Origin: Pseudobutyrivibrio sp. OR37
GTDB lineage: Bacteria; Bacillota; Clostridia; Lachnospirales; Lachnospiraceae
Assembly (NCBI RefSeq): GCF_900113655.1
Contig: NZ_FOQF01000025.1
Location: 1-52,877 of the forward strand
Direction: 5' to 3'
DNA length: 52,877 nt
Part shown: positions 1 to 31,059 of the stretch, one piece after another
Layout of the letters: the number at the start of each line of letters is the position of its first letter
How positions within the stretch are numbered: the stretch's first letter is position 1
Notes under the pieces: generated by a model
Told to the model about the DNA's origin: nothing
The model's database searches: none
The model's input: the letters and a program-made list of their open reading frames with translations, nothing else
Position numbers and translations under genes: made by a program

Positions 1-207
1 CAGACCTTAGGTATGAAAGATTTATACTCTCACAGAAAAGAAACCATAGAAAGAATCTTCGGAACAGCCAAAGAGAATCATGGTTTTAGATATACGCAGA
101 TGTATGGGAAGGCGCGCATGGTAATGAAGGTTGCGCTTACCTTTGCGTGTATGAATTTAAAGAAGCTGGCAAAGATACAGCAAGAATGGGATTTAGAAAT
201 GGCCTAA
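1..207 (+). CDS. IS1182-family transposase, C-terminal fragment
   Basis: The reading frame is open from the first base, so the gene enters from the left edge and only its last 68 codons are visible. The segment RKETIERIFGTAKENHG followed by FACMNLKKLA is the C-terminal end of the DDE transposase domain of IS1182-type elements, in which the last catalytic Glu lies in the ETIER stretch. It would cut and join DNA for transposition of its own element. Whether the element is intact cannot be judged, because the rest lies outside the window. Two hairpins follow the stop codon. Family assignment is from memory of the motif. Confidence 0.75.
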   Translation, partial: QTLGMKDLYSHRKETIERIFGTAKENHGFRYTQMYGKARMVMKVALTFACMNLKKLAKIQQEWDLEMA

Positions 208-257
208 AGGAAGGCCTTTTTACATAAAAATCAAAATATAATCTTAGAAAAATGGAA

Positions 258-290
258 AGGATGCTGCAAAACTTAGTTTTGCAGCATCCT
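258..290. terminator. Perfect 16-bp hairpin downstream of the transposase
   Basis: Arms at 258-273 and 275-290 are perfectly complementary around a single central base (AGGATGCTGCAAAACT and its complement). It is 50 bp past the transposase stop and is followed by TCTTTGTC rather than a long T run. It could be the transposase terminator, or part of the end of the IS element. Confidence 0.5.
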
Positions 291-307
291 CTTTGTCTAC
301 ACTCTGT

Positions 308-340
308 AATCTCACATACAGTTGTATGTGAGATTTTTTT
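308..340 (+). terminator. Rho-independent terminator
   Basis: Arms AATCTCACATACA (308-320) and TGTATGTGAGATT (323-335) enclose a 2-base loop and run into a T tract to 340. This is a good intrinsic terminator for plus-strand transcription leaving the transposase. Confidence 0.75.
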
Positions 341-571
341 ATTAGCTTTAGGTTGGGGAACCTATTCAATATACGCCTTCACTTTTCTAGTGAGGCTAGA
401 ATTCTTTTGGCTATCATTTCGATAGCATATTTCATGGTAAGTTGGATTTTTCGTATCCATGCGCAGCAAGCAGGATATGGTTTATTTTCTGTACCTTTTT
501 GCACTCTTTTTTTGCGAAGGCAGGGTGACAGAGGAATACTTTACACGGAAATAAGTAACTATTTTGTTTTG
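341..571. other. Gene-less stretch between terminator and tRNA remnant
   Basis: I see no convincing gene here. Short open frames exist on both strands but lack ribosome sites and resemble no family. On the minus strand this DNA would be the downstream flank of the tRNA remnant. Confidence 0.5.
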
Positions 572-600
572 TGCGGGTGACAGGACTTGAACCTGCACGG
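572..600 (-). pseudogene. 3' end of a tRNA gene (probably tRNA-Leu), truncated
   Basis: Read on the minus strand, this contains a T-arm (GCAGG, loop TTCAAGT, CCTGT) followed by a 3' acceptor strand CACCCGC and discriminator A. The preceding CCGT fits the end of a long variable arm, as in tRNA-Leu. The matching 5' acceptor GCGGGTG, D-arm and anticodon arm are absent: the sequence turns directly into the TTACCACT palindrome array. A tRNA 3' end without its body is what integrases leave as an attachment-site copy, but a truncation by repeat expansion is also possible. Confidence 0.7.
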
Positions 601-603
601 AGA

Positions 604-1169
604 TTACCACTGCGGAAGCTGATGTGGGAAGCCATAGTGGTAAAGTAAGCCGGAAATTACCACTGTGAAGCCGATGCAGGGAAGCCACAGTGGTAAAGGA
701 AGCCGGAAATTACCACTGTGAAGCCGATGCAGGGAAGCCACAGTGGTAAAGGAAGCCGGAGATTACCACTGTGAAGCTGATGAATGGAAACGCAGTGGTA
801 AAGGAAGCCGGAAATTACCACTGCGGAGCCGATGCGGGAAGCCACAGTGGTAAAGGAAGCCGGAAATTACCACTGCGGAGCTGATGCAGGAAGCCACAGT
901 GGTAAAGTAAGCCGGAAATTACCACTGTGAAGCCGATGCAGGGAACCACAGTGGTAAAGCAAGCCAGAGATTACCACTGCGGAAGCCGATGCAGGAAGCC
1001 GCAGTGGTAAAGTAAGCCAGAAATTACCACTGCGAAAGCTGATGCAGGAAGCCGCAGTGGTAAAGTAAGCCGGAAATTACCACTGCGGAGCCGATGCAGG
1101 GAAGCCACAGTGGTAAAGGAAGCCGGAAATTACCACTGTGGAAGTTGATGCAGGGAACCACAGTGGTAA
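604..1169. repeat. Array 1: 11 tandem palindromic units, TTACCACT...AGTGGTAA, ~52.6 bp period
   Basis: Units begin at 604, 657, 710, 763, 814, 867, 919, 971, 1024, 1077 and 1130. Each starts with TTACCACTG and ends with CAGTGGTAA (TAGTGGTAA in the first), so each can form a hairpin with a 9-11 bp stem. The interior is a variation on GAAGCCGATGCAGGGAAGC, and units are joined by about 13 bp resembling AGTAAGCCGGAAA. Periods are 51-53 bp. The array begins 3 bp after the tRNA remnant and ends 38 bp before a nuclease-like gene. It is not a CRISPR, because interior and linker are both conserved. Confidence 0.92.
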
Positions 1170-1207
1170 AGCAGAAGTCAGAAAAGCCAAAAAAGAAAAG
1201 GAGTATT

Positions 1208-2029
1208 ATGAGTAAAGCTATAATTGATGTTTTAAACAAGGAAAGAAATCAACTTATCATGGAAAAAGAAAGATTAGAGAAAGTAATTGTCCCAGATGAT
1301 GGTAGTTATTTGGAAATTAAGAAGAACAAGGGAAAGTATGTCCAGTATTATAAGTGTAGCAAAAAGGGAAATAGCATGGCTTCAGCCAAAACTTTTATTA
1401 GAAAAAGTGATTTAGATATCGCAAAGCAGCTTGCTCAGTCTGAATTCGATAGGAAGCTTTATGCAGATATCAATACCAGATTCAATAGATTAGATTCTTT
1501 GCTAAGCTATTATAGCAATAATAGAATAAGTGATTTATATTCAAAGTTATCCCCTGAAAGAAGAGCATTGATAGAAAGTACTTATTTAGATGATGAGAAT
1601 TATATAAAGCAGTGGCAAGAGTTATATGCAAACAAAGATGATGAATACATAAGTAAGTACCCCATCGAAACCCAATATTACACCGAAAAAGGCGAACATG
1701 TCAGATCAAAGTCTGAAATGATAATAGCAGACAAGCTTTCCAAAGCAGGTGTTCCTTATGTATATGAGCCAGCCTGTGATTTGAATAAGAAAGGACTTCA
1801 CCCAGATTTCGCTGTACTCAACATAACAACTAGAGAGACATATTTCTATGAGCATTTTGGGATGATGGATAAGCCAGAGTATGCCACAGCAGCAATAAGA
1901 AAGATTGCTAAGTATCGCGAGCTAGGATACGAGTATGGGCAGAAGCTGTTGTTTACATTCGAGACTGGTGGAGATGGATTAAGTATAAAAGATTTAAAAA
2001 TAATAATTGAAAAATATTTACGAAATTAA
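1208..2029 (+). CDS. Putative PD-(D/E)XK-type nuclease, 273 aa
   Basis: The start is ATG 1208, which has AAAAGGAG five bases upstream. An in-frame ATG at 1094 lies inside the palindrome array and would translate repeat sequence. The N-terminal half (to about residue 150) is charged and helical. The C-terminal half has the layout of a restriction-endonuclease fold: E170 in RSKSEMIIADKL, then HPDF (H198-P199-D200-F201), then YEHFG with E215, then a helix and GQKLLFTF. D200 and E215 would be the metal ligands; the residue two after E215 is Phe, not the usual Lys, so the assignment is probable rather than certain. Its substrate is unknown. It stands alone between the palindrome array and a sigma factor operon. 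Confidence 0.65.
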   Translation: MSKAIIDVLNKERNQLIMEKERLEKVIVPDDGSYLEIKKNKGKYVQYYKCSKKGNSMASAKTFIRKSDLDIAKQLAQSEFDRKLYADINTRFNRLDSLLSYYSNNRISDLYSKLSPERRALIESTYLDDENYIKQWQELYANKDDEYISKYPIETQYYTEKGEHVRSKSEMIIADKLSKAGVPYVYEPACDLNKKGLHPDFAVLNITTRETYFYEHFGMMDKPEYATAAIRKIAKYRELGYEYGQKLLFTFETGGDGLSIKDLKIIIEKYLRN

Positions 2030-10877: not shown

Positions 10878-10961
10878 AAGGCGATTTATATACCGAATCA
10901 TTTGGGGCTATATTGGGATGATTAGGTAGGGTCGCTTTTTTTGACGCGTTTTGTCAAAAAA
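10878..10961 (+). promoter_or_regulatory. Structured 5' leader: terminator-like stem overlapped by a second hairpin
   Basis: A long stem forms from AAGGCGA (10878-10884) with TCGCTTT (10932-10938) and TACCGAATCAT (10891-10901) with ATGATTAGGTA (10918-10928), with a 16-nt apical loop, and runs straight into a T tract, as an intrinsic terminator does. The T tract itself is the left arm of a second hairpin, TTTTTTTGAC (10936-10945) with GTCAAAAAA (10953-10961), ending 5 bases before the ribosome site AAGGAGG. The two cannot form fully together. This fits an attenuator or unknown riboswitch; I do not recognise a known class. Confidence 0.55.
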
Positions 10962-10983
10962 TTTTAAGGAGGAGAGTATAGGA

Positions 10984-13900
10984 ATGAAAAAATTGGCTCG
11001 AAGAGGGCTTTCTTTGGTTCTGGCTTTTTTCATGGTTGCAACTACTGCATATTCTGATATGTCCTTTGTATCCCTTGCAGAAGAAGCTAATCATGTATGG
11101 ACTAAAGTAAGTCTTAACGAAATCACTTCTAATGACTCTATTGCCATCGCAGTTACAACATCTGATGGCGAAACCTATGTTATGCCAAGCGTATCCTCTA
11201 CTAAATCTGGACCTAGTGCAGTTCTAGCAACAGTTAGTGGAAGCGAGCTTACCGTTTCAGAGGGTAAGGACAGCGATTATGCTTGGAGCGTTAGCACAAA
11301 AACAGTAGAAGAAACTGTTGTTGCTAATAGCGAAAACAATGCTGAGGCTGAGGAGGATTCTTTAGTAGAAAAGAATCTTTCAGATTCAGAGGATAAATCC
11401 GAAGAATTAACTTCAGAGAAAACAGCTGAAGAAACTGTAGTAAATACAGATGATTCTTCAAAGGCTGCTGTTGAGGAAGATGCTAAGGAGCAGCTTTCAG
11501 ATAATAAGGAAGCTTCAGAAGAATTAAAGGAAGATGCTTCAGCAGAGGAAGAACAGGAAGAAGATAAGAAGGAAGAGACTGTTACAAAAACATACTACAC
11601 CTTCGCTTCTGGTACTAACTATCTATATACTACTGCAGCAAACAATGGTGTAAGAGTTAACAGTATGCCAAAGGATGAAGTAGGCGCTAGATGGGAATTA
11701 GCTGATAACGGCTATCTATCAGCCAAGGATTCTAAGGGGGTAGCTCGTTATTTAGGAATCTATAATAAGAAGGATTTCAGAGCTTACACTTCAAATGGTG
11801 GAAATATTGCTGACCAGTCAGTGGCTTTCTACAAGCTCACCACCAAAAACGCAGGTGATGCCAAGGTTGCAGCACCTACAGCTTCAATCGAAAGCGGAAA
11901 AGCTGTTGAATTTGGCACAGAGGTAACTCTTTCATGTGCTGATGAAGACGCAAAGATTTATTACAACGTAAACGGTAGTGAGGATAACTATTCCCCATAC
12001 AAGGAAGCAGTTGTAATCACAAAGGACACTACAATCTACGCTTATGCTACAAAGGATGATAAGAAGAGCGAAATCGTTTCTTTCAATTATACACTTGCAG
12101 CAGGAAGCAAAATCACTGATGTAACAAAGCTTGATTCTGAGCAGGAGTTTGTTCTTGCATTTAACGATGCAAACATCATGACAACAACTGCTACAGCACC
12201 AGATAAGAAGGGTAATACAAAGCTTGAAGCTCTTAAGGCAGAGCTTGATTCTGACAAGCACCTTGTTTACTCAGAGGCAGAAGCACCTATCGCAAAGCTT
12301 TCATTAGAGAAGGCTGAGGCAGATGGTGAGTATTACATCACAACAAACATCTTTATTGAAAATGTATTAACAAAGCATTATTTAACAACTACAGCTACAG
12401 GCAGTGCTCTTTCTTTTGTTACTGAAAAGACAGATTACAGCACATGGTCAGTAGAGACACAGGAAGATGGTAGCTTATTAATCAAAAATACAAAGGCTAT
12501 TTATCACGATGCAAAGAAGAACATTGATAAGCCACAGTACATCGAGTTTTTCAATACCTTCACAGCTTACAGCTATGTTGCAGGAACAGATAAAATCGAT
12601 GCATTCAAGCTTAATGCATACACAGTTCCTTCCCTTCAGGTAAAGGAAGACGTTCCTACTAAAAATACTGTAGGCAAGCTGCTTACAAGAGAGCTTTATG
12701 ATGGTGACCAGGTAGTTGCATATCATCCAGGCTCAGGCAAGGTTATGACATCGGTTGCTGAAAAGGGTGGTCTTCAGGGAATCGACCTTAAGCCAGCTGA
12801 AGATGAAACAATTGATATCAAGGATACTGAAGCAGTTGTTCTTACAGTAGTAATTGATGAAAACGGAAACTATCTGTTCAAGACAGAAGATGGTAAGTAT
12901 CTTACAATCGAAAAGTTAGAGACAGAAAAGGATGGCAAGACAAAGACAACAATCAATCTTATTCTTGCAGATAACGCAACAGATGAAAGTACATGGACTC
13001 TTGCAGCAGCAGATGACAAGAATGCTGGTAACTTCTATCTAAAGAGTGCAACTGTAAAGGTTGGCTCTAGCGTTCAGGCCTTCGAGTACTACGGCGGTGA
13101 TTTCAAGGCTTATGGCTTCAAGGAAGATCCAGCTTACGTATTTAATTTCTTCGCTTTAGAAGAAGGCGAGAAGACAGTTAAGCTTGAGTACGAGGACGAA
13201 AGACTTGCTGTTGCACAGTGGGCAGGTAATGCTCATTACAACGAGTTTGAAGATTGTGCTAAAGCAATCTATGGTGATAAATACGCTACAAACGATATGC
13301 TTGATAAGTCAGCAAAGTTCACATCAGTCGTTGGTGGTGTAGAAACACAGCCATGGACATCTGCAAAGAGCTCAACAACAGGCTCAACAAGCTTTTACAT
13401 GGGTTCAACTGGTGTTGCAAATGCTGCAACAGATTACATGCAGCTTGCTCTTTCAACAGTTGGCTATGGAAACCTTGAGCTTGGCTTTAGAATGAGAGCT
13501 TCAAATACAGCAGCTGGTTCATTCCAGTTACAGTATTCAACAGATGGAGAGAACTTCAAAAACTTCAAGACAGGTACTTACTCATACAAATATTCTGCAT
13601 ACAAGAAATCTGGTAAGCAGGATGAAAATGGTAAGGAAATCATGGAGCAGTATGAGGTAAGTGGTTCTGGCGATATTGCAGACGGTATTGCAAAGACATC
13701 TTATGCTCCTACATATTATGTGAGCTTTAAATTTAATGTTCCAAATGCAGCAGCAAATGCTGAGAAGCTTTATATCAGATTTGTTCCAGGCAATTTAAAT
13801 GCTAAGGGTGACAAGGAGCCATCTAATGGCGGCGTTATCCGTATGGATAGTGTTGCATTATCAGGAAACCCAGTTATCGACCCTACCAGAGCAAGATTTG

Positions 13901-16900
13901 TAGTTGCAAATCCAAGCAGCTCAGAGGTTGCTATTGGACAGAAGATTGATCTTTCATCACTTACAGAAGGCGCAGATATTTACTATTCAGTAAATGGTGG
14001 CGAATTCGTTAAGTATGATGAAAACGAAAAGCTTACAATCACTGAGCTTCCTGCAACAGTTCAGGCATACGCTACAAAAGAGGGTATGGAAAAGAGTATC
14101 ACAGTTAGCTACTCATATACTCAGGCTCAGGTTCAGGCAGTAAAGGCTGCACCAAACGGTGGTGCCGTTATCGAAAATCAGAAGGTATCACTTAAGACAA
14201 AGACAGAAGATGCAACAATCCTCTACAGATACATGACTGAAGAAGAGATTGCGGCAGCTGATGCAAAGGCTACAAAGACTGAAGAAAAGGCAGAGGGCGA
14301 AGAAGCTACTGAGCCTACAGAGCCTGCAACAGAAAAGGAAGTAGAGCACGAAGACTGGATTACCTACACAGGTTCATTCGAGCTTAAGGCTCTTCCATGT
14401 CAGCTTCAGGTAAAGGCTGTTAAAGAAGGCTATAAGGATAGCGCAGTATCAACAATTAAGTTCACAAAGAGACTTAATGACAAATACAATATCTACTTCG
14501 GACAGGTTCATGCTCATACAAACATTTCCGATGGTGCTGGTTCACTTGAGGATGCCTTAAAGCATGCAACAAAGGTAGATAACTTAGATTACATTGTAAT
14601 CACAGATCACAGTAACTCAATTGATAATGAGAAGGAATCAAAGATTACTGAAAACGTTGATAAGTCTGCAGATGATGAGTGGACATACGCTCACAATCTT
14701 GTAAAGCAGTACTCAACAGACAAATTTACATGTGCTTACGGTTATGAAATGACATGGTCAAACGGACTTGGTCACATGAACACCTTCAACACACCAGGTT
14801 TCCAGAGCCGTACACAGACAGAATATTCAACATATTCAACAGCTCTTCAGAACTACTATGCAGCACTTAGAACTGTTCCTGATTCAATCAGCCAGTTCAA
14901 CCACCCAGGTACTACATTCGGTGATTTCAGTGATTTCGCATATTACTCAGAAGAGAATGATAACCTTATCACAATGATCGAGGTTGGTAACGGTGAAGGA
15001 ACAATCGGTTCTTCAGGTTACTTCCCATCATACGAGTACTACACACGTGCACTTGATAAGGGCTGGCACGTAGCTCCTACAAACAACCAGGATAACCACA
15101 AGGGTAAGTGGGGCGATGCCAATACAGCACGAACAGTAATGCTTGCTGATGTAAATGATGAGAACGCTATCTACGATGCAATGAGAAACTATCGTATTTA
15201 CGCAACAGAGGATAACGATCTTTCAATTTACTACACACTTGATAATTACATCATGGGTACAATCCTTGAGAAGGATGCAGTTGGCGACACAGTAGAGCTT
15301 AAGGCAGACATTAAGGATCCTACAGATTCAAAGATTGGCAGAGTTGAAGTTATTGTAAACGGTGGACAGTCAATCGCTATGCAGAACGTATCAGGTAATG
15401 ATACAACGGTTAAATTTGAAGTACCTTCAAGCTATTCATACTACTACTTAAAGATTACAGAGGATGATGGCGATATCGCTGTTACAGCTCCTGTATGGGT
15501 AGGCGAGGTTGAAGCTTGTGGTATCAACAAGACTTATACAAACACAGTTCTTCCAGTTAAGGGAGAAAGCCTTGACGTAAATGTTGATTTATACAACAAC
15601 GAAGCAAGTGCTCTTGATATTAACTTCATCGACGTTGTACTTAAGGACGTTGATGGTAAGGAAACACCGGTTGCATCACTTACAGGCGAGGAAGCAGGGG
15701 TTGCTTCAGTTGCTTCAAATGATACAGCTACATTCAAAACAGATTTTGTTTACAACGAAGCAGGTCAGGTAACCTACGAAATCACAGTTAGAGCAACACT
15801 TAACGGTGTTCCAAAGGTTTACACAGATAAGCTGCAGGTAAGCTACGCACTTCCATCTATGATTGCAGACATCGTTATCGATGGTACACATGGAAATGAT
15901 TATGTAACAGGCTACTACGGTGGAAACGTAAATGCGTTTATCAAGCTTTGCGCAGCAAAGAATATCCGTGCAACAGTTGTAAGAGACAAGATTACAGCTG
16001 ACACACTTAAGAATGCTAAGCTTCTTGTAGTTTCAGCTCCAGCAAAGAAGTCTGGTACTGCAAACGCAGGAGATTACAAGGTAAGCCATTTCGAAGATGA
16101 ATTCATTGCTACTGTTAAGGACTACGTTGCAAACGGTGGTTCAGTTGCAGTTTGCGGTTTGGCTGATTACTCAGATACAGCAGAAGGTCAGACAGGCACA
16201 GAGCAGAACAAGCTTCTTTCAGCAATCGGCGCAACAATCCGCATGGGTTCTGATGAGGTTTGCGATGACAAGAATAATGGCGGTCAGGTTTACAGAATGT
16301 ATCCTACAAATGTAAATCTTGATTCTGAGCTTCTTGCAGGCTTCAGAGAGGGCCAGAAGTACAGCCAGTATTCAGGCTGCTCAGTTGATATTTCAAATGC
16401 TACAGCAAACGATGTTGTAGATGCAGCAGAATGGCTTGTAAAGGGATATAACACAACATACTCTGTAGATTGCAAGGATGATAATGGTAAGGCAATCGAA
16501 GGCACCCTTGAAAATGGAGTAAAGGGTAAGAAGCTTGACAACGAAGGCAACGTAACCTTCCTTGCTCGTCAGAAGACAAAAGCAGGTGGACAGATTATCG
16601 TAGCCGGTGGCGTATTCCTTTCAGACTTCGAAGTAAAGGCAGAGATGGACAACAACGATTCTCTTCCTTATGTAAACCACACAATCGTAAACAACATTTT
16701 AGATGGTTCACAGGTTGAGCTTCCAGTATCAACAATCGCTGAAGCAAGAGCCGGTGAAATGAATGAAGTGTTTGCCGTAGAAGGATATGTAACATCTGGT
16801 ACAGACAACGAAAACACAACATTCTTCGATACAATCTATCTCCAGGATGAGACAGCTGGTATCGATATCTTCCCATACGCAACACCAGGTCTTGCAATTG

Positions 16901-17811
16901 GTACAAAGATGCGTATCGTTGGATATGTTTCACAGTACCAGGGAGATAAGGAATTAAAGGTTATTTCTTACAAGATTCTTAATGATGAGCCACACATTTG
17001 GGAGCCTAAGAAGGTTGATACAAAGACAGCAATGGATTACGACAAGCTGGGCGGTTCATTACTTGAGACAGAAGGTAAGGTTACAAGAGTAGCAATTGGT
17101 GCTGATGGTGCCATTGAAGAGTTCTGGCTTAAGGATAAGTCAGGTGTTGAGGCAGCTATCTTCATCGATGGTTACATCAAATCAGCTACAACAGGTAAGA
17201 ACACTCTTACTGATTTTGTAAAGGTTGGCGCTACAGTTTCTGCAATTGGTGTACTTTACAAGCATCCAGAAGGAGCTTCTGATGTATCAGTACCAGTATT
17301 CAGAGTAAGAAACTGCGATGACATTAAGCTTATCAAGGCAGCTCCATCAGTTACTCCAGGTGGTAACGGTGGAAATGGCGGAAACAGCAATCCTATTGCA
17401 AATATTATCAGCAACATCAACAAGGCTATTGATAAGGCAGTAGATGCTATTATCGCTCCAATCGAAAACACACCAGTTGGTCGTGTAGTAAGAAATGTAG
17501 TTGACAGAATTAGAACTGTAAGAGACAGATTCTTCGGAAACGGTGATGCAACTGTATCAGAGGATACTACTGAAGCAGTAGTAGAGGATGAAGCAGAAGA
17601 GCAGCCAGAAGAAGAGCCGGCAGATGAGGAAGTTTCTGTAGATCCACAGCCATCTGAGACAATCGAAGATGAGCAGGTACCAGAAGCTGGCAAGGAAAAA
17701 ACATCATTCCCAGTAGTGCCAGTTGCAGCAGCATCTGTTATAATCGTAGCAGGAGTTGGAGCAACACTTGCAGGAAAGTTTGGACTACTAGGAAAGTTGT
17801 TTGGAAAGTAA
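10984..17811 (+). CDS. Giant cell-surface protein with PHP metallo-phosphoesterase (CehA/McbA-like) domain
   Basis: A 2275-residue secreted protein. ATG 10984 follows AAGGAGG by 11 bases. Order of parts (approximate residues): signal peptide 1-33; Ser/Glu-rich acidic linker 106-199; chitobiase-C-terminal-like beta domain 293-369; ricin/fascin-like beta repeats 370-735; jelly-roll-like domain 739-967; two more chitobiase-C-like domains 969-1161; PHP domain 1169-1416 with metal-binding motifs VHAHTN, VITDHSN, GYEMTW and FNHPG; beta region; ThuA/glutamine-amidotransferase-like fold 1627-1880; OB-fold-like regions 1915-2115; acidic linker; C-terminal membrane span about 2243-2263 followed by a Lys-containing tail. 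PHP domains cleave phosphoesters; with the other parts this suggests extracellular nucleic-acid or phospho-glycan processing, which is inference. Confidence 0.8.
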   Translation: MKKLARRGLSLVLAFFMVATTAYSDMSFVSLAEEANHVWTKVSLNEITSNDSIAIAVTTSDGETYVMPSVSSTKSGPSAVLATVSGSELTVSEGKDSDYAWSVSTKTVEETVVANSENNAEAEEDSLVEKNLSDSEDKSEELTSEKTAEETVVNTDDSSKAAVEEDAKEQLSDNKEASEELKEDASAEEEQEEDKKEETVTKTYYTFASGTNYLYTTAANNGVRVNSMPKDEVGARWELADNGYLSAKDSKGVARYLGIYNKKDFRAYTSNGGNIADQSVAFYKLTTKNAGDAKVAAPTASIESGKAVEFGTEVTLSCADEDAKIYYNVNGSEDNYSPYKEAVVITKDTTIYAYATKDDKKSEIVSFNYTLAAGSKITDVTKLDSEQEFVLAFNDANIMTTTATAPDKKGNTKLEALKAELDSDKHLVYSEAEAPIAKLSLEKAEADGEYYITTNIFIENVLTKHYLTTTATGSALSFVTEKTDYSTWSVETQEDGSLLIKNTKAIYHDAKKNIDKPQYIEFFNTFTAYSYVAGTDKIDAFKLNAYTVPSLQVKEDVPTKNTVGKLLTRELYDGDQVVAYHPGSGKVMTSVAEKGGLQGIDLKPAEDETIDIKDTEAVVLTVVIDENGNYLFKTEDGKYLTIEKLETEKDGKTKTTINLILADNATDESTWTLAAADDKNAGNFYLKSATVKVGSSVQAFEYYGGDFKAYGFKEDPAYVFNFFALEEGEKTVKLEYEDERLAVAQWAGNAHYNEFEDCAKAIYGDKYATNDMLDKSAKFTSVVGGVETQPWTSAKSSTTGSTSFYMGSTGVANAATDYMQLALSTVGYGNLELGFRMRASNTAAGSFQLQYSTDGENFKNFKTGTYSYKYSAYKKSGKQDENGKEIMEQYEVSGSGDIADGIAKTSYAPTYYVSFKFNVPNAAANAEKLYIRFVPGNLNAKGDKEPSNGGVIRMDSVALSGNPVIDPTRARFVVANPSSSEVAIGQKIDLSSLTEGADIYYSVNGGEFVKYDENEKLTITELPATVQAYATKEGMEKSITVSYSYTQAQVQAVKAAPNGGAVIENQKVSLKTKTEDATILYRYMTEEEIAAADAKATKTEEKAEGEEATEPTEPATEKEVEHEDWITYTGSFELKALPCQLQVKAVKEGYKDSAVSTIKFTKRLNDKYNIYFGQVHAHTNISDGAGSLEDALKHATKVDNLDYIVITDHSNSIDNEKESKITENVDKSADDEWTYAHNLVKQYSTDKFTCAYGYEMTWSNGLGHMNTFNTPGFQSRTQTEYSTYSTALQNYYAALRTVPDSISQFNHPGTTFGDFSDFAYYSEENDNLITMIEVGNGEGTIGSSGYFPSYEYYTRALDKGWHVAPTNNQDNHKGKWGDANTARTVMLADVNDENAIYDAMRNYRIYATEDNDLSIYYTLDNYIMGTILEKDAVGDTVELKADIKDPTDSKIGRVEVIVNGGQSIAMQNVSGNDTTVKFEVPSSYSYYYLKITEDDGDIAVTAPVWVGEVEACGINKTYTNTVLPVKGESLDVNVDLYNNEASALDINFIDVVLKDVDGKETPVASLTGEEAGVASVASNDTATFKTDFVYNEAGQVTYEITVRATLNGVPKVYTDKLQVSYALPSMIADIVIDGTHGNDYVTGYYGGNVNAFIKLCAAKNIRATVVRDKITADTLKNAKLLVVSAPAKKSGTANAGDYKVSHFEDEFIATVKDYVANGGSVAVCGLADYSDTAEGQTGTEQNKLLSAIGATIRMGSDEVCDDKNNGGQVYRMYPTNVNLDSELLAGFREGQKYSQYSGCSVDISNATANDVVDAAEWLVKGYNTTYSVDCKDDNGKAIEGTLENGVKGKKLDNEGNVTFLARQKTKAGGQIIVAGGVFLSDFEVKAEMDNNDSLPYVNHTIVNNILDGSQVELPVSTIAEARAGEMNEVFAVEGYVTSGTDNENTTFFDTIYLQDETAGIDIFPYATPGLAIGTKMRIVGYVSQYQGDKELKVISYKILNDEPHIWEPKKVDTKTAMDYDKLGGSLLETEGKVTRVAIGADGAIEEFWLKDKSGVEAAIFIDGYIKSATTGKNTLTDFVKVGATVSAIGVLYKHPEGASDVSVPVFRVRNCDDIKLIKAAPSVTPGGNGGNGGNSNPIANIISNINKAIDKAVDAIIAPIENTPVGRVVRNVVDRIRTVRDRFFGNGDATVSEDTTEAVVEDEAEEQPEEEPADEEVSVDPQPSETIEDEQVPEAGKEKTSFPVVPVAAASVIIVAGVGATLAGKFGLLGKLFGK

Positions 17812-28620: not shown

Positions 28621-29247
28621 ATGAAAATTGCTGTATGTGTGTCTGGCGGTGGCACAAACCTCCAGGCAATTATTGATAAAATTGAATCAGGTGAGATTCA
28701 CAATACTGAGATTGCAGTTGTAATCTCAAATAATAAAAATGCCTACGCCCTAGAGCGTGCAGCAAAAGCCGGAATCGAAGGCGTGTGCATCAGCCCAAAG
28801 GATTATGCATCCCGCGATGAATTCAACAAAGCATTTCTTGAGAAGCTTAATTCTTATAATGTAGATTTAGTAGTGCTGGCAGGATTCTTAGTGGTGATTC
28901 CAGAGGAAATGATTCGCCAGTATAGGAACAGAATCATCAATATCCATCCATCCCTGATACCAAGCTTCTGTGGCACAGGCTACTATGGCTTAAAGGTACA
29001 CGAGGGGGTTCTCTCCCGCGGTGTAAAAGTCACCGGCGCCACATGCCACTTCGTGGATGAAGGCACCGACACTGGCCCAATCATCTTGCAGAAGGCTGTC
29101 GAGGTTTTAGAAGGCGACACTCCTGAAATCCTCCAGCGTCGTGTCATGGAGCAAGCCGAGTGGATTATCATGCCACGCGCCATAGACCTAATTGCGCGTG
29201 GATGTGTCAGCGTGGTAGATGGCAAGGTACATATCGCTGCAAAATAA
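28621..29247 (+). CDS. purN: Phosphoribosylglycinamide formyltransferase
   Basis: Adds a formyl group from 10-formyl-tetrahydrofolate to GAR in purine synthesis. The 208-residue protein has VSGGGTNLQAI near residue 8, the catalytic region INIHPSLIPSFCGTGYYG (Asn-x-His near 107), and the folate-site Asp in VDEGTDTGPII. The loop SFCGTGYYG replaces the common AFKGLxAxx form, a known clostridial variant in my recollection. It begins after TTTGGAG. Confidence 0.94.
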   Translation: MKIAVCVSGGGTNLQAIIDKIESGEIHNTEIAVVISNNKNAYALERAAKAGIEGVCISPKDYASRDEFNKAFLEKLNSYNVDLVVLAGFLVVIPEEMIRQYRNRIINIHPSLIPSFCGTGYYGLKVHEGVLSRGVKVTGATCHFVDEGTDTGPIILQKAVEVLEGDTPEILQRRVMEQAEWIIMPRAIDLIARGCVSVVDGKVHIAAK

Positions 29248-29252
29248 ATGTA

Positions 29253-29762
29253 TTACCACTGTAGGAAGAAAGATAGAAAATGCAGTGGTAAAAAAAGAGT
29301 AGGATTACCACTGTAAGAGAAAAGGCACGAAATGCAGTGGTAAAAAAAGAGTAGGATTACCACTGTAAGAAGAAAGACATGAAATATAGTGGTAAAGCAA
29401 GCGGGAAAATACCACTGCAAATCAGTCAGCGCGAAATACAGTGGTAAAGTAAGAGAGAAATTACCACTGTGACCCAGCTAGTGCAAAATCCAGTGGTAAA
29501 AATAGAGAGATTACCACTACCACCCAGTTAAAATGGAAAAGCTAGAGGTAAAGAAAAAGCAAATTACCACTAGTGAAGCTGAAAATCTAAGCTGCTAGAG
29601 GTAAACCAAACAGAGATTACCACTAGCACCCAGCGAAAATAGAAATGCTAGTGGTAACCTAGCAAAAATTACCACTAGCACCCAGCAAAAATAGAAATAC
29701 TAGTGGTAACCCAGCAAAAAATTACCACTACCACCCGGTACAGACAGAAGCGCTAGTGGTAA
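29253..29762. repeat. Array 2: 10 tandem palindromic units, TTACCACT...AGTGGTAA, ~52 bp period
   Basis: Units begin at 29253, 29305, 29357, 29409, 29461, 29511, 29564, 29617, 29669 and 29722. They fill the purN-purD gap. Units 1-5 extend the stem as ACTG/CAGT; units 6-10 extend it as ACTA/TAGT, with unit 8 reaching an 11-bp perfect stem ending AGC/GCT. Units 6 and 7 have AGAGGTAA on the right. The filler is A-rich and unlike the filler of array 1, yet the end octamers and the period are the same. The last unit ends 25 bp before purD. Confidence 0.92.
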
Positions 29763-29787: not shown

Positions 29788-31059
29788 ATGAAAGTTTTAA
29801 TAGTAGGTAGCGGCGGACGTGAGCATGCAATTGCACTTGCGGTTTCAAGAAGCCAGAAGGTAGACAAGATTTACTGCGCACCAGGAAATGCAGGTATTGC
29901 GGAGCTTGCAGAATGCGTAGATATAAAGGCAATGGAGTTCGACAAGCTTGTTGCCTTTGCCAAGGAAAAGGAGATTGACCTTACAATCATCGGCATGGAT
30001 GATCCACTTGTAGGTGGCGTAGTTGATGAATTTGAAAAGGCTGGTCTTAGATGCTTTGGCCCTAGAAAGAATGCGGCTATCCTTGAGGGTTCAAAAGCAT
30101 TCTCAAAGGATTTAATGAAGAAATATAATATCCCAACAGCGGGCTATGAGAATTTCACAGACCCAGAGGCTGCCTTAAAGTACCTTGAAACAGCAAAATA
30201 CCCAATCGTATTGAAGGCTGATGGCCTTGCACTTGGTAAGGGGGTGCTTATCTGTGAGAATCATGAGCAGGCGGTAGCAGGTGTTGCAGAAATCATGCAG
30301 GACAAGAAGTTTGGAAACGCTGGCAACACAATGGTTATCGAAGAGTTCATGACAGGTCGCGAGGTTTCTGTACTTTCATTTGTAGATGGAAACACAGTAA
30401 AGATTATGTCATCTGCGCAGGATCATAAGCGTGCAGGTGATGGGGATACTGGCCTTAACACAGGTGGTATGGGTAACTTCTCGCCATCTCCATTCTTCAC
30501 AAAAGAGGTAGAGGAATTCTGCCAGAAGAATATCTTCCAGCCTACAGTAGATGCTATGAAGGCTGAGGGAAGAGAGTTCAAGGGAGTTATCTTCTTTGGT
30601 TTGATGCTTACAGAGGATGGCCCAAAGGTTCTTGAATATAATGCAAGATTTGGAGATCCAGAAGCACAGGTAGTGTTACCTAGACTAAAAAATGATATAA
30701 TCGATGTAATGGAAGCTTGCATTGATGGTAAGCTTGATGAAATCGATCTACAGTTTTCTGATGAAGCAGCAGTTTGCGTAGTACTTGCTTCTGAGGGTTA
30801 TCCAGTTTCTTACAAGAAGGGATTTCCTATTACAGGCTTTGACAAGTTCAACAACAAGGATTATTTCTGCTTCCACGCTGGCACTGCCTTTAACGATAAG
30901 GGCGAGATTGTCACAAACGGAGGACGTGTGCTTGGCATTACAGCACTTGGCGATACATTAGTAGAGGCTCGTGCAAAGGCTTATGAAGCTACCGAATGGA
31001 TTGATTTCGAAAATAAATATATGAGACATGATATCGCAAATGCGATATTAAATAACTAG
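29788..31059 (+). CDS. purD: Phosphoribosylamine-glycine ligase (GAR synthetase)
   Basis: An ATP-grasp enzyme that joins glycine to phosphoribosylamine. The 423-residue protein shows VLIVGSGGREHAIA at the start, GPRKNAAILEGSKAFSKDLM, YPIVLKADGLALGKGV (ATP grasp), and the signature RFGDPEAQVVLPRL near residue 287. It starts after TTGGAGGAG. It is probably read from the purN side through array 2, or from a promoter that I cannot see within the array. Confidence 0.95.
   Translation: MKVLIVGSGGREHAIALAVSRSQKVDKIYCAPGNAGIAELAECVDIKAMEFDKLVAFAKEKEIDLTIIGMDDPLVGGVVDEFEKAGLRCFGPRKNAAILEGSKAFSKDLMKKYNIPTAGYENFTDPEAALKYLETAKYPIVLKADGLALGKGVLICENHEQAVAGVAEIMQDKKFGNAGNTMVIEEFMTGREVSVLSFVDGNTVKIMSSAQDHKRAGDGDTGLNTGGMGNFSPSPFFTKEVEEFCQKNIFQPTVDAMKAEGREFKGVIFFGLMLTEDGPKVLEYNARFGDPEAQVVLPRLKNDIIDVMEACIDGKLDEIDLQFSDEAAVCVVLASEGYPVSYKKGFPITGFDKFNNKDYFCFHAGTAFNDKGEIVTNGGRVLGITALGDTLVEARAKAYEATEWIDFENKYMRHDIANAILNN

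Follow-up and report, generated by a model that had tools for sequence, protein, structure and literature searches.

Two arrays in the window

The gap between purN and purD in the window (the whole stretch of DNA analyzed, 52,877 nucleotides) is occupied by array 2 (29253..29762, no strand assigned), ten dyad units of the form TTACCACT-N23/25-AGTGGTAA joined by linkers of 11-13 bp. The 5' neighbor, purN (formyl transferase, PF00551; 28621..29247, + strand), has a stop codon that ends at 29247, and the array ends 25 bp before the ATG (29788) of the 3' neighbor, purD (29788..31059, + strand, named by Pfam). By their Pfam names, the surrounding genes form a purM-purN-purD run. The mean period is 52.1 bp ((29722-29253)/9), and the coordinates bear out the ten units, the period and the location given in an earlier, sequence-only reading.

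Units 1-5 are 39 bp long, are mostly of a G/C extension class and have 13 bp linkers after units 1-4; units 6-10 are 41 bp long and of an A/T class, with 11 or 12 bp linkers after units 5-9. Units of the A/T class are also longer, by 2 bp, and have shorter linkers. The earlier description of stems extended by G/C in units 1-5 and by A/T in units 6-10 is right at position 9 for units 1, 2, 4 and 5 (G/C) and 6-10 (A/T), but unit 3 is G/T; the AGC/GCT extension of unit 8 is as described. Retention of the octamers of array 1 has to be qualified by one-sided breaks in unit 4 (ATACCACT) and in units 6 and 7 (AGAGGTAA), and the description is simplified in that units 6 and 10 have C/C at position 10 and unit 9 has C/A at position 11. 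The fillers of the two arrays are unlike by inspection of both sequences, in agreement with that reading.

Array 1 (604..1169, no strand assigned) comprises eleven dyad units with the half-site of array 2. It lies directly upstream of the gene for a 273-aa nuclease-like protein, P0001 (1208..2029, + strand), which has a C-terminal PD-(D/E)XK-type domain and is the proposed reader of both arrays. With arrays 1 and 2 excluded, the window has 5 exact octamers. Genome-wide (3.56 Mb), the pattern TTACCACT-N10..30-AGTGGTAA has 18 forward matches, all in arrays 1 and 2, and the reversed control has 0; the occurrence of array 2 is far beyond chance.

An inverted 3' fragment of tRNA-Leu(UAG) (571..603, - strand) abuts the outer end of array 1, and an intact copy is on contig C66. 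In several species (L120, L121, L122, L124, L125 and L128) the nuclease-side array likewise has such an inverted fragment at its outer end. The tRNA and the array half-site have CTAGTGG in common, and it is possible that the first array unit derives from the tRNA. Downstream of the intact tRNA-Leu(UAG), near position 24900 of contig C66 (L351), an integrase-like reading was seen by eye on the other strand. Thus, an element may have displaced the nuclease locus at this site. Elsewhere in the window, positions 1-207 resemble, by eye, the C-terminal end of a transposase gene, the gene after P0001 (2072-2617) encodes a sigma-70-type factor (Pfam regions 2 and 4), and a 2286-aa open reading frame (10951-17811) has only chitobiase-C-like and Fn3-associated stretches by Pfam.

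The nuclease-like protein

P0001 has no match in Pfam or NCBIfam at 0.001. Residues 157-270 match the end of the PDC-S68 models of PADLOC (E 3.5e-24), relatives of the protein match HEAT_CxxC_PDDEXK, and there is a T7 endonuclease I profile match (E 0.005). The predicted structure has a pLDDT of 88 and a pTM of 0.58; a first model was dropped (pLDDT 62.8, vs 88 for the second). The best Foldseek match of the model, to MunI, is weak (E 0.099), and there is none at 0.001. The acidic residues E170, D200 and E215 are present in 112/112 family members, with or without arrays, and K232 in 103/112 (R in the rest). By analogy, these four would be the catalytic residues of the PD-(D/E)XK-type domain. 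A phage origin was considered and rejected: P0001 has no relative in the viral contigs, where the family profile found 8 loci that match the C-terminal part of the query only.

Distribution of the half-site units

The dyad pattern was identified in 16 of 61 genomes, all of them among the 29 that belong to the genus of the window, Pseudobutyrivibrio (Lachnospiraceae), and in none of the 32 genomes from other genera. One genome (G011) has a single dyad match only; reversed controls gave 0 to 2 per genome across the 61. When the species collection was scanned with a 1.5-unit pattern, 45 stretches were found, 43 labeled Pseudobutyrivibrio. The two out-of-genus matches (one Gracilibacteria and one Vallitaleaceae record, 3 sites each) were left out of the unit counts, for which the set is 45 non-redundant arrays with 299 units (266 distinct) and 262 linkers. 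The element type that had been described as recurrent is real.

Most units are 39 bp (174) or 41 bp (95) long, with 26 of 40 bp and 4 of other lengths, and linkers are mostly 13 bp (177) or 12 bp (77; other lengths 8). Unit and linker lengths compensate in the TTACCACT group: 39+13 accounts for 144 and 41+12 for 69 of 254 pairs (Spearman -0.80). Across the 45 arrays the octamers are near-invariant and the fillers variable, and the conserved portion of the unit is a half-site of 8-11 bp. TTACCACT comes first and AGTGGTAA last in 37 of 47 arrays, the opposite order occurs in 0, and 10 have an odd number of sites. Thus, we take the inverted pair to be the unit.

The gene family represented by 1208-2029 adjoins 11 of the 47 arrays. 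Among the 29 genus genomes, 14 encode a close orthologue of P0001 (249 bits or more). Each of these orthologues is directly preceded by a TTACCACT-type array, and in 13/14 the distance from array end to start codon is ~23-41 bp. Arrays in which units adjoin are found in 15 of the 29, namely the 14 orthologue genomes and G021; the co-occurrence has a Fisher probability of 2e-7, a statistic that ignores relatedness among the 29 genomes. The orthologue shares its locus with tRNA-Leu(UAG) in 12/14. G021 has kept arrays, and its tRNA-Leu(UAG) locus lacks the nuclease-like gene.

Arms in the wider family

At least one family member is carried by 28 of the 29 genus genomes, and the 14 orthologue genomes also carry other members, which align along most of the protein at 25-39% identity. 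Outside the genus, any family match is found in 61 of 150 Lachnospiraceae genomes; in a phylum-wide sample of 299 genomes the number is 15, and the near-full-length matches are all from Lachnospiraceae. Many of the other members are directly preceded by an array that has the architecture of the TTACCACT arrays with different arms (e.g., TACTATC, TACAGTG, AGACGTA, GACTATA, GCACGCA). TAC occurs in the forward half-site of 20/33 arms outside the TTACCACT group, counted for arms that score 8 or more in a spacing-bounded finder, with related proteins not merged.

A general detector scored 9 or more upstream of 73/112 members with 150 bp or more of upstream sequence (59/98 without the 14 orthologues), with 0/112 shuffles (maximum 6) and 10/76 downstream regions reaching this cut, which was chosen after the shuffle scores were known. 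Of the 107 members judged for array status, 20 have no array and 14 a weak one. Three earlier finders were superseded: one missed degenerate arrays (of 77: 36 upstream, 3 downstream, 1 shuffled), the next was too lax (52 upstream, 22 downstream and 5 shuffled, of 77), and the third was bounded in spacing.

Arm identity tracks protein identity in these sequences. Arms are shared by 42/44 protein pairs at 60% identity or more, 68/102 at 45-60%, 174/792 at 35-45% and 352/1690 below 35%, the last being the background of a lax sharing test. Glutamine at position 46 is found in 57/73 array-bearing members vs 5/20 without an array (p 2e-5; the 14 members with weak arrays, of which 11 have Q, were left out). 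Since Q46 goes with array presence, and the position falls in a predicted N-terminal three-stranded sheet, the N-terminal domain may be the array reader.

Dispersal and turnover of arrays

Two paralogues were followed in the window's genome (G000), which holds only 2 TTACCACT arrays. The TACTATC arms give 24 forward dyad matches there, with a reversed control of 0. These dyads flank their own gene on both sides and form arrays on contigs C35 (two places), C48, C58, C26 and C15; one lone match is on C16. The TACAGTG paralogue, the third tried, has 3 dyads at its own gene only and no dispersed array in this genome. Arrays adjoin purD, pgm, folC, DUF2520-panBC and glycoside hydrolase genes.

Both G000 and G025 have arrays at the site upstream of a DUF2520 gene that precedes panB and panC, and their DUF2520 proteins are 96.8% identical. 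In G000 (L332 ~2300-2640) the units are of the TACTATC type; in G025 (L062 ~1430-1800) the array is chimeric, with one TACTATC-type unit first and then TTACCACT-type units. As the two genomes carry different arms at one site, the address appears to have been switched in register. In G025, 185 bp separate the array from the gene, and by eye over 100 bp of this interval is alike in G000.

Arrays are found between purN and purD in 9 of 29 genomes, from 1 unit (G008) to 14 or more (G025). In the remaining 20 the gap is 2 to 212 bp, lacks octamers and is short or otherwise filled. Some of these gaps hold other palindromic-looking elements, alike by eye within L296/L297/L301 and within L299/L303/L306. 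By-eye inspection of purN-purD showed no target-site duplication. Among the orthologous purN-purD units that could be matched (183), 133/3294 arm sites (4.0%) and 975/3875 filler sites (25.2%) differ; the units were matched by filler similarity, which favors a low filler difference, and the pairs are not independent.

Pairing and helical phasing

The sequence-only reading took compensating changes to mean that pairing, or dyad symmetry, is maintained. Dyad symmetry is kept, but pairing is unsupported for the core octamer: over 299 units and 8 positions we counted 71 one-sided changes, with 42 falling at position 6, a single compensated one and a single double change that leaves a wobble. At position 6 there are 31 A/A and 8 T/T vs 1 T/A. 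Since octamer changes are one-sided and almost never compensated, the core does not look like an RNA-pairing element. Positions 9-11, outside the octamer, do covary between sides. This covariation falls into two classes by length, G/C in 39-bp units and A/T in 41-bp units, and thus may be due to shared ancestry. Array 2 is predicted to fold strongly as RNA (z -11.35), as expected for a string of inverted repeats.

The repeat periods of the family cluster near 52.5, 63, 73.5 and 84 bp, and the step that fits them best, 10.45-10.85 bp according to the cut used, is about one DNA turn. With one array taken per protein cluster, 52 lineages below 60% identity (score 9 or more) give R(10.5)=0.83 and a best step of 10.45 over 7-16 bp, and 0/4000 jittered controls reach the observed vector strength. 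The 23 lineages below 45% identity give R=0.76 with a best step of 10.5, and a stricter score cut of 12 gives best steps of 10.60 (n=39) and 10.85 (n=18), again with a vector strength that no jittered set reaches. Periods over 56 bp alone (n=15) have R 0.67 (Rayleigh p 1.2e-3) and, with a scanned step, fall just below the 95% point of the null maximum (0.678). Thus, the signal needs the 5-turn class plus others. Off-grid periods (70.2, 71.0, 80.8 and 96.3) were retained in the analysis. Whole helical turns matter to proteins on double-stranded DNA, and we know of no reason why they should matter to a string of RNA hairpins. The period quantization points to phased binding on double-stranded DNA, and DNA dyad symmetry is therefore favored over RNA pairing.

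The sense strand is purine-rich in 65 of 73 arrays at nuclease-like genes (mean 0.59), and the gap from array to start codon in these 73 has a median of 40 bp (10th to 90th percentile 17 to 243). This bias and the short distance suggest that the arrays at nuclease-like genes probably lie in a transcribed leader, so that a role at the RNA level is possible. Purine richness of the sense strand is not predicted by DNA binding alone.

Comparison with known systems

Iteron and operator arrays consist of repeated half-sites spaced by whole helical turns, to which phased DNA-binding proteins attach. They differ from the present arrays in that here the proposed reader is nuclease-like, each paralogue has its own arms and arrays are dispersed in the chromosome. 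The PDC-S68 candidate defense proteins of PADLOC resemble P0001 in the nuclease domain (residues 157-270), but their models are 1202-1273 positions long and match its C-terminal part only. A CRISPR-like array was rejected, as fillers drift by substitution between orthologous units; the window has no Rfam match at the gathering threshold, to CRISPR or to any other known RNA family. No cas genes were named among the neighbors scanned, where one helicase has a sub-threshold Cas3-like match.

In REPIN-RAYT systems, as outlined in excerpts of PMC3116915, an enzyme gene lies beside cognate inverted short repeats that are dispersed intergenically, and several enzyme groups each have their own repeat. 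The P0001-type gene is likewise beside cognate inverted repeats with dispersed copies and an own repeat per enzyme group, and inverted doublets are the unit in intergenic space in both. However, the units of P0001 are in long, regular, helically phased arrays at few loci, whereas REPINs are many single doublets. P0001 has no transposase match at 0.001 in Pfam or NCBIfam that would make it a RAYT (HUH tyrosine transposase); a recombinase zinc-ribbon match is sub-threshold (E 0.032), and the C-terminus resembles PD-(D/E)XK-type proteins. A REP palindrome is described in part of PMC3733652 as 20-40 bp with a tagged end (GTAG and similar), unlike the conserved part here, which is only the 8-11 bp half-site.

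Type III toxin-antitoxin systems (ToxIN, CptIN, TenpIN) have tandem repeats directly upstream of a nuclease gene, and the repeat differs by subgroup (PMC5086642, in the portion consulted). The gene order is alike, but here only short half-sites are conserved, arrays occur away from the gene and phasing is helical. No ToxN-type match for P0001 was found in Pfam even at E 1. Lacking as well is a terminator between array and gene: none of 5 terminator-like sites in window 200-1215 falls after 426, and at the L129 array the only site found (921-942) is before the array.

Proposed working and alternatives

We think it reasonably probable, from the sequence evidence, that P0001, encoded beside array 1, has a DNA target array of which array 2 is a dispersed copy. 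The best reading for the family, which occurs in rumen bacteria and related organisms, is that the phased dyad arrays of each array-bearing member would be bound by that member, next to its gene and in some cases at further loci. P0001 would read the half-site TTACCACT(G or AG), with two copies occupying one dyad unit. Successive dyads would be whole helical turns apart, placing the bound proteins on one face of the DNA with contacts along the array, i.e., binding would be direct and cooperative. The effect of the arrays is likely transcriptional. Because the array ends so close to the start codon in 13/14 orthologues, its occupancy would repress the nuclease-like gene, an autoregulation in which polymerase is probably blocked. 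At purN-purD, the same complex would reduce purD compared with purN, or act according to the state of the cell. Cutting or nicking by the nuclease possibly drives changes in array copy number, or spread.

Several observations count against this reading. As given above, 20/107 members have no array and 14 a weak one, and 10/76 downstream regions score as arrays. G021 has arrays without the nuclease at the tRNA-Leu locus, some periods are off the grid, the best step shifts under a stricter cut, periods over 56 bp alone do not exceed the scanned null, the TACAGTG paralogue shows no dispersal, and no Foldseek match is significant. The folding of array 2, the covariation at positions 9-11 and the purine-rich leaders also count against it, in favor of RNA.

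The strongest rival is a selfish, REPIN-like replicator, in which the nuclease would propagate its cognate array to further intergenic sites and make it expand, the dispersed arrays would have no host function and half-sites would be kept by the requirement of the enzyme only (for REPINs as selfish replicators, see excerpts of PMC3116915 and PMC8049555). We consider this unlikely, but it is the alternative to which we give most weight. It accords with a purN-purD gap that arrays fill in only 9/29 genomes, running there from 1 unit to 14 or more, and that is short or has another content in the remaining 20; the invariant acidic residues and the change at the DUF2520 site from TACTATC-type units in G000 to mainly TTACCACT-type units in G025 are also in its favor. 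However, a genome with only 2 TTACCACT arrays is a poor fit to a replicator, the orthologue does not roam (tRNA-Leu(UAG) is in the same locus in 12/14) and the purN-purD arrays persist in 9 genomes. A target-site duplication is not visible there by eye. Of 10 genes neighboring 6 paralogues in G000, Pfam matches 8, none of them to a mobile-element family. An RNA-level system, with the leader transcribed as a string of hairpins that the nuclease binds or cuts, as in a type III toxin-antitoxin array, is improbable. The position of the repeats directly upstream of a nuclease-like gene, the z of -11.35, the purine bias and the covariation at positions 9-11 are all as it would have them, but the 71 one-sided vs 1 compensated octamer changes and a period quantized in ~10.5 bp steps are not. 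Neither are the lack of a terminator-like site between array 1 and P0001 and the DUF2520 array of G025, 185 bp from its gene across a stretch of which more than 100 bp is alike in G000. Finally, the arrays could serve as operators for a conventional transcription factor of purine or other metabolism, which would have the nuclease gene as just one of its targets. The genes beside them (purD, pgm, folC, DUF2520-panBC, glycoside hydrolases) fit such a role. This we regard as very improbable, given that arrays follow the presence of the nuclease, that paralogues differ in arms, each keeping its own array, and that the exact pattern finds no isolated dyad in the genome.

Returning to the P0001-target reading, we suggest only tentatively that the family constitutes a new class of DNA-addressed proteins: a nuclease-fold family in which array-bearing paralogues have their own phased array beside the gene, the same address at few loci, and re-addressing in register, as at the DUF2520 site. 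No description of such a system of arrays and nuclease-like proteins was found in the open-license literature searched. If the reading is true, this one family would provide dozens of natural protein/half-site pairs that can be read straight from the genome. Thus, a recognition code would be testable at once. The evolution of the arrays would be unusual, with periods changing mostly by whole helical turns, and the proteins would combine a nuclease domain that has intact acidic residues with proposed targets that stand uncut in the operons of the host itself.
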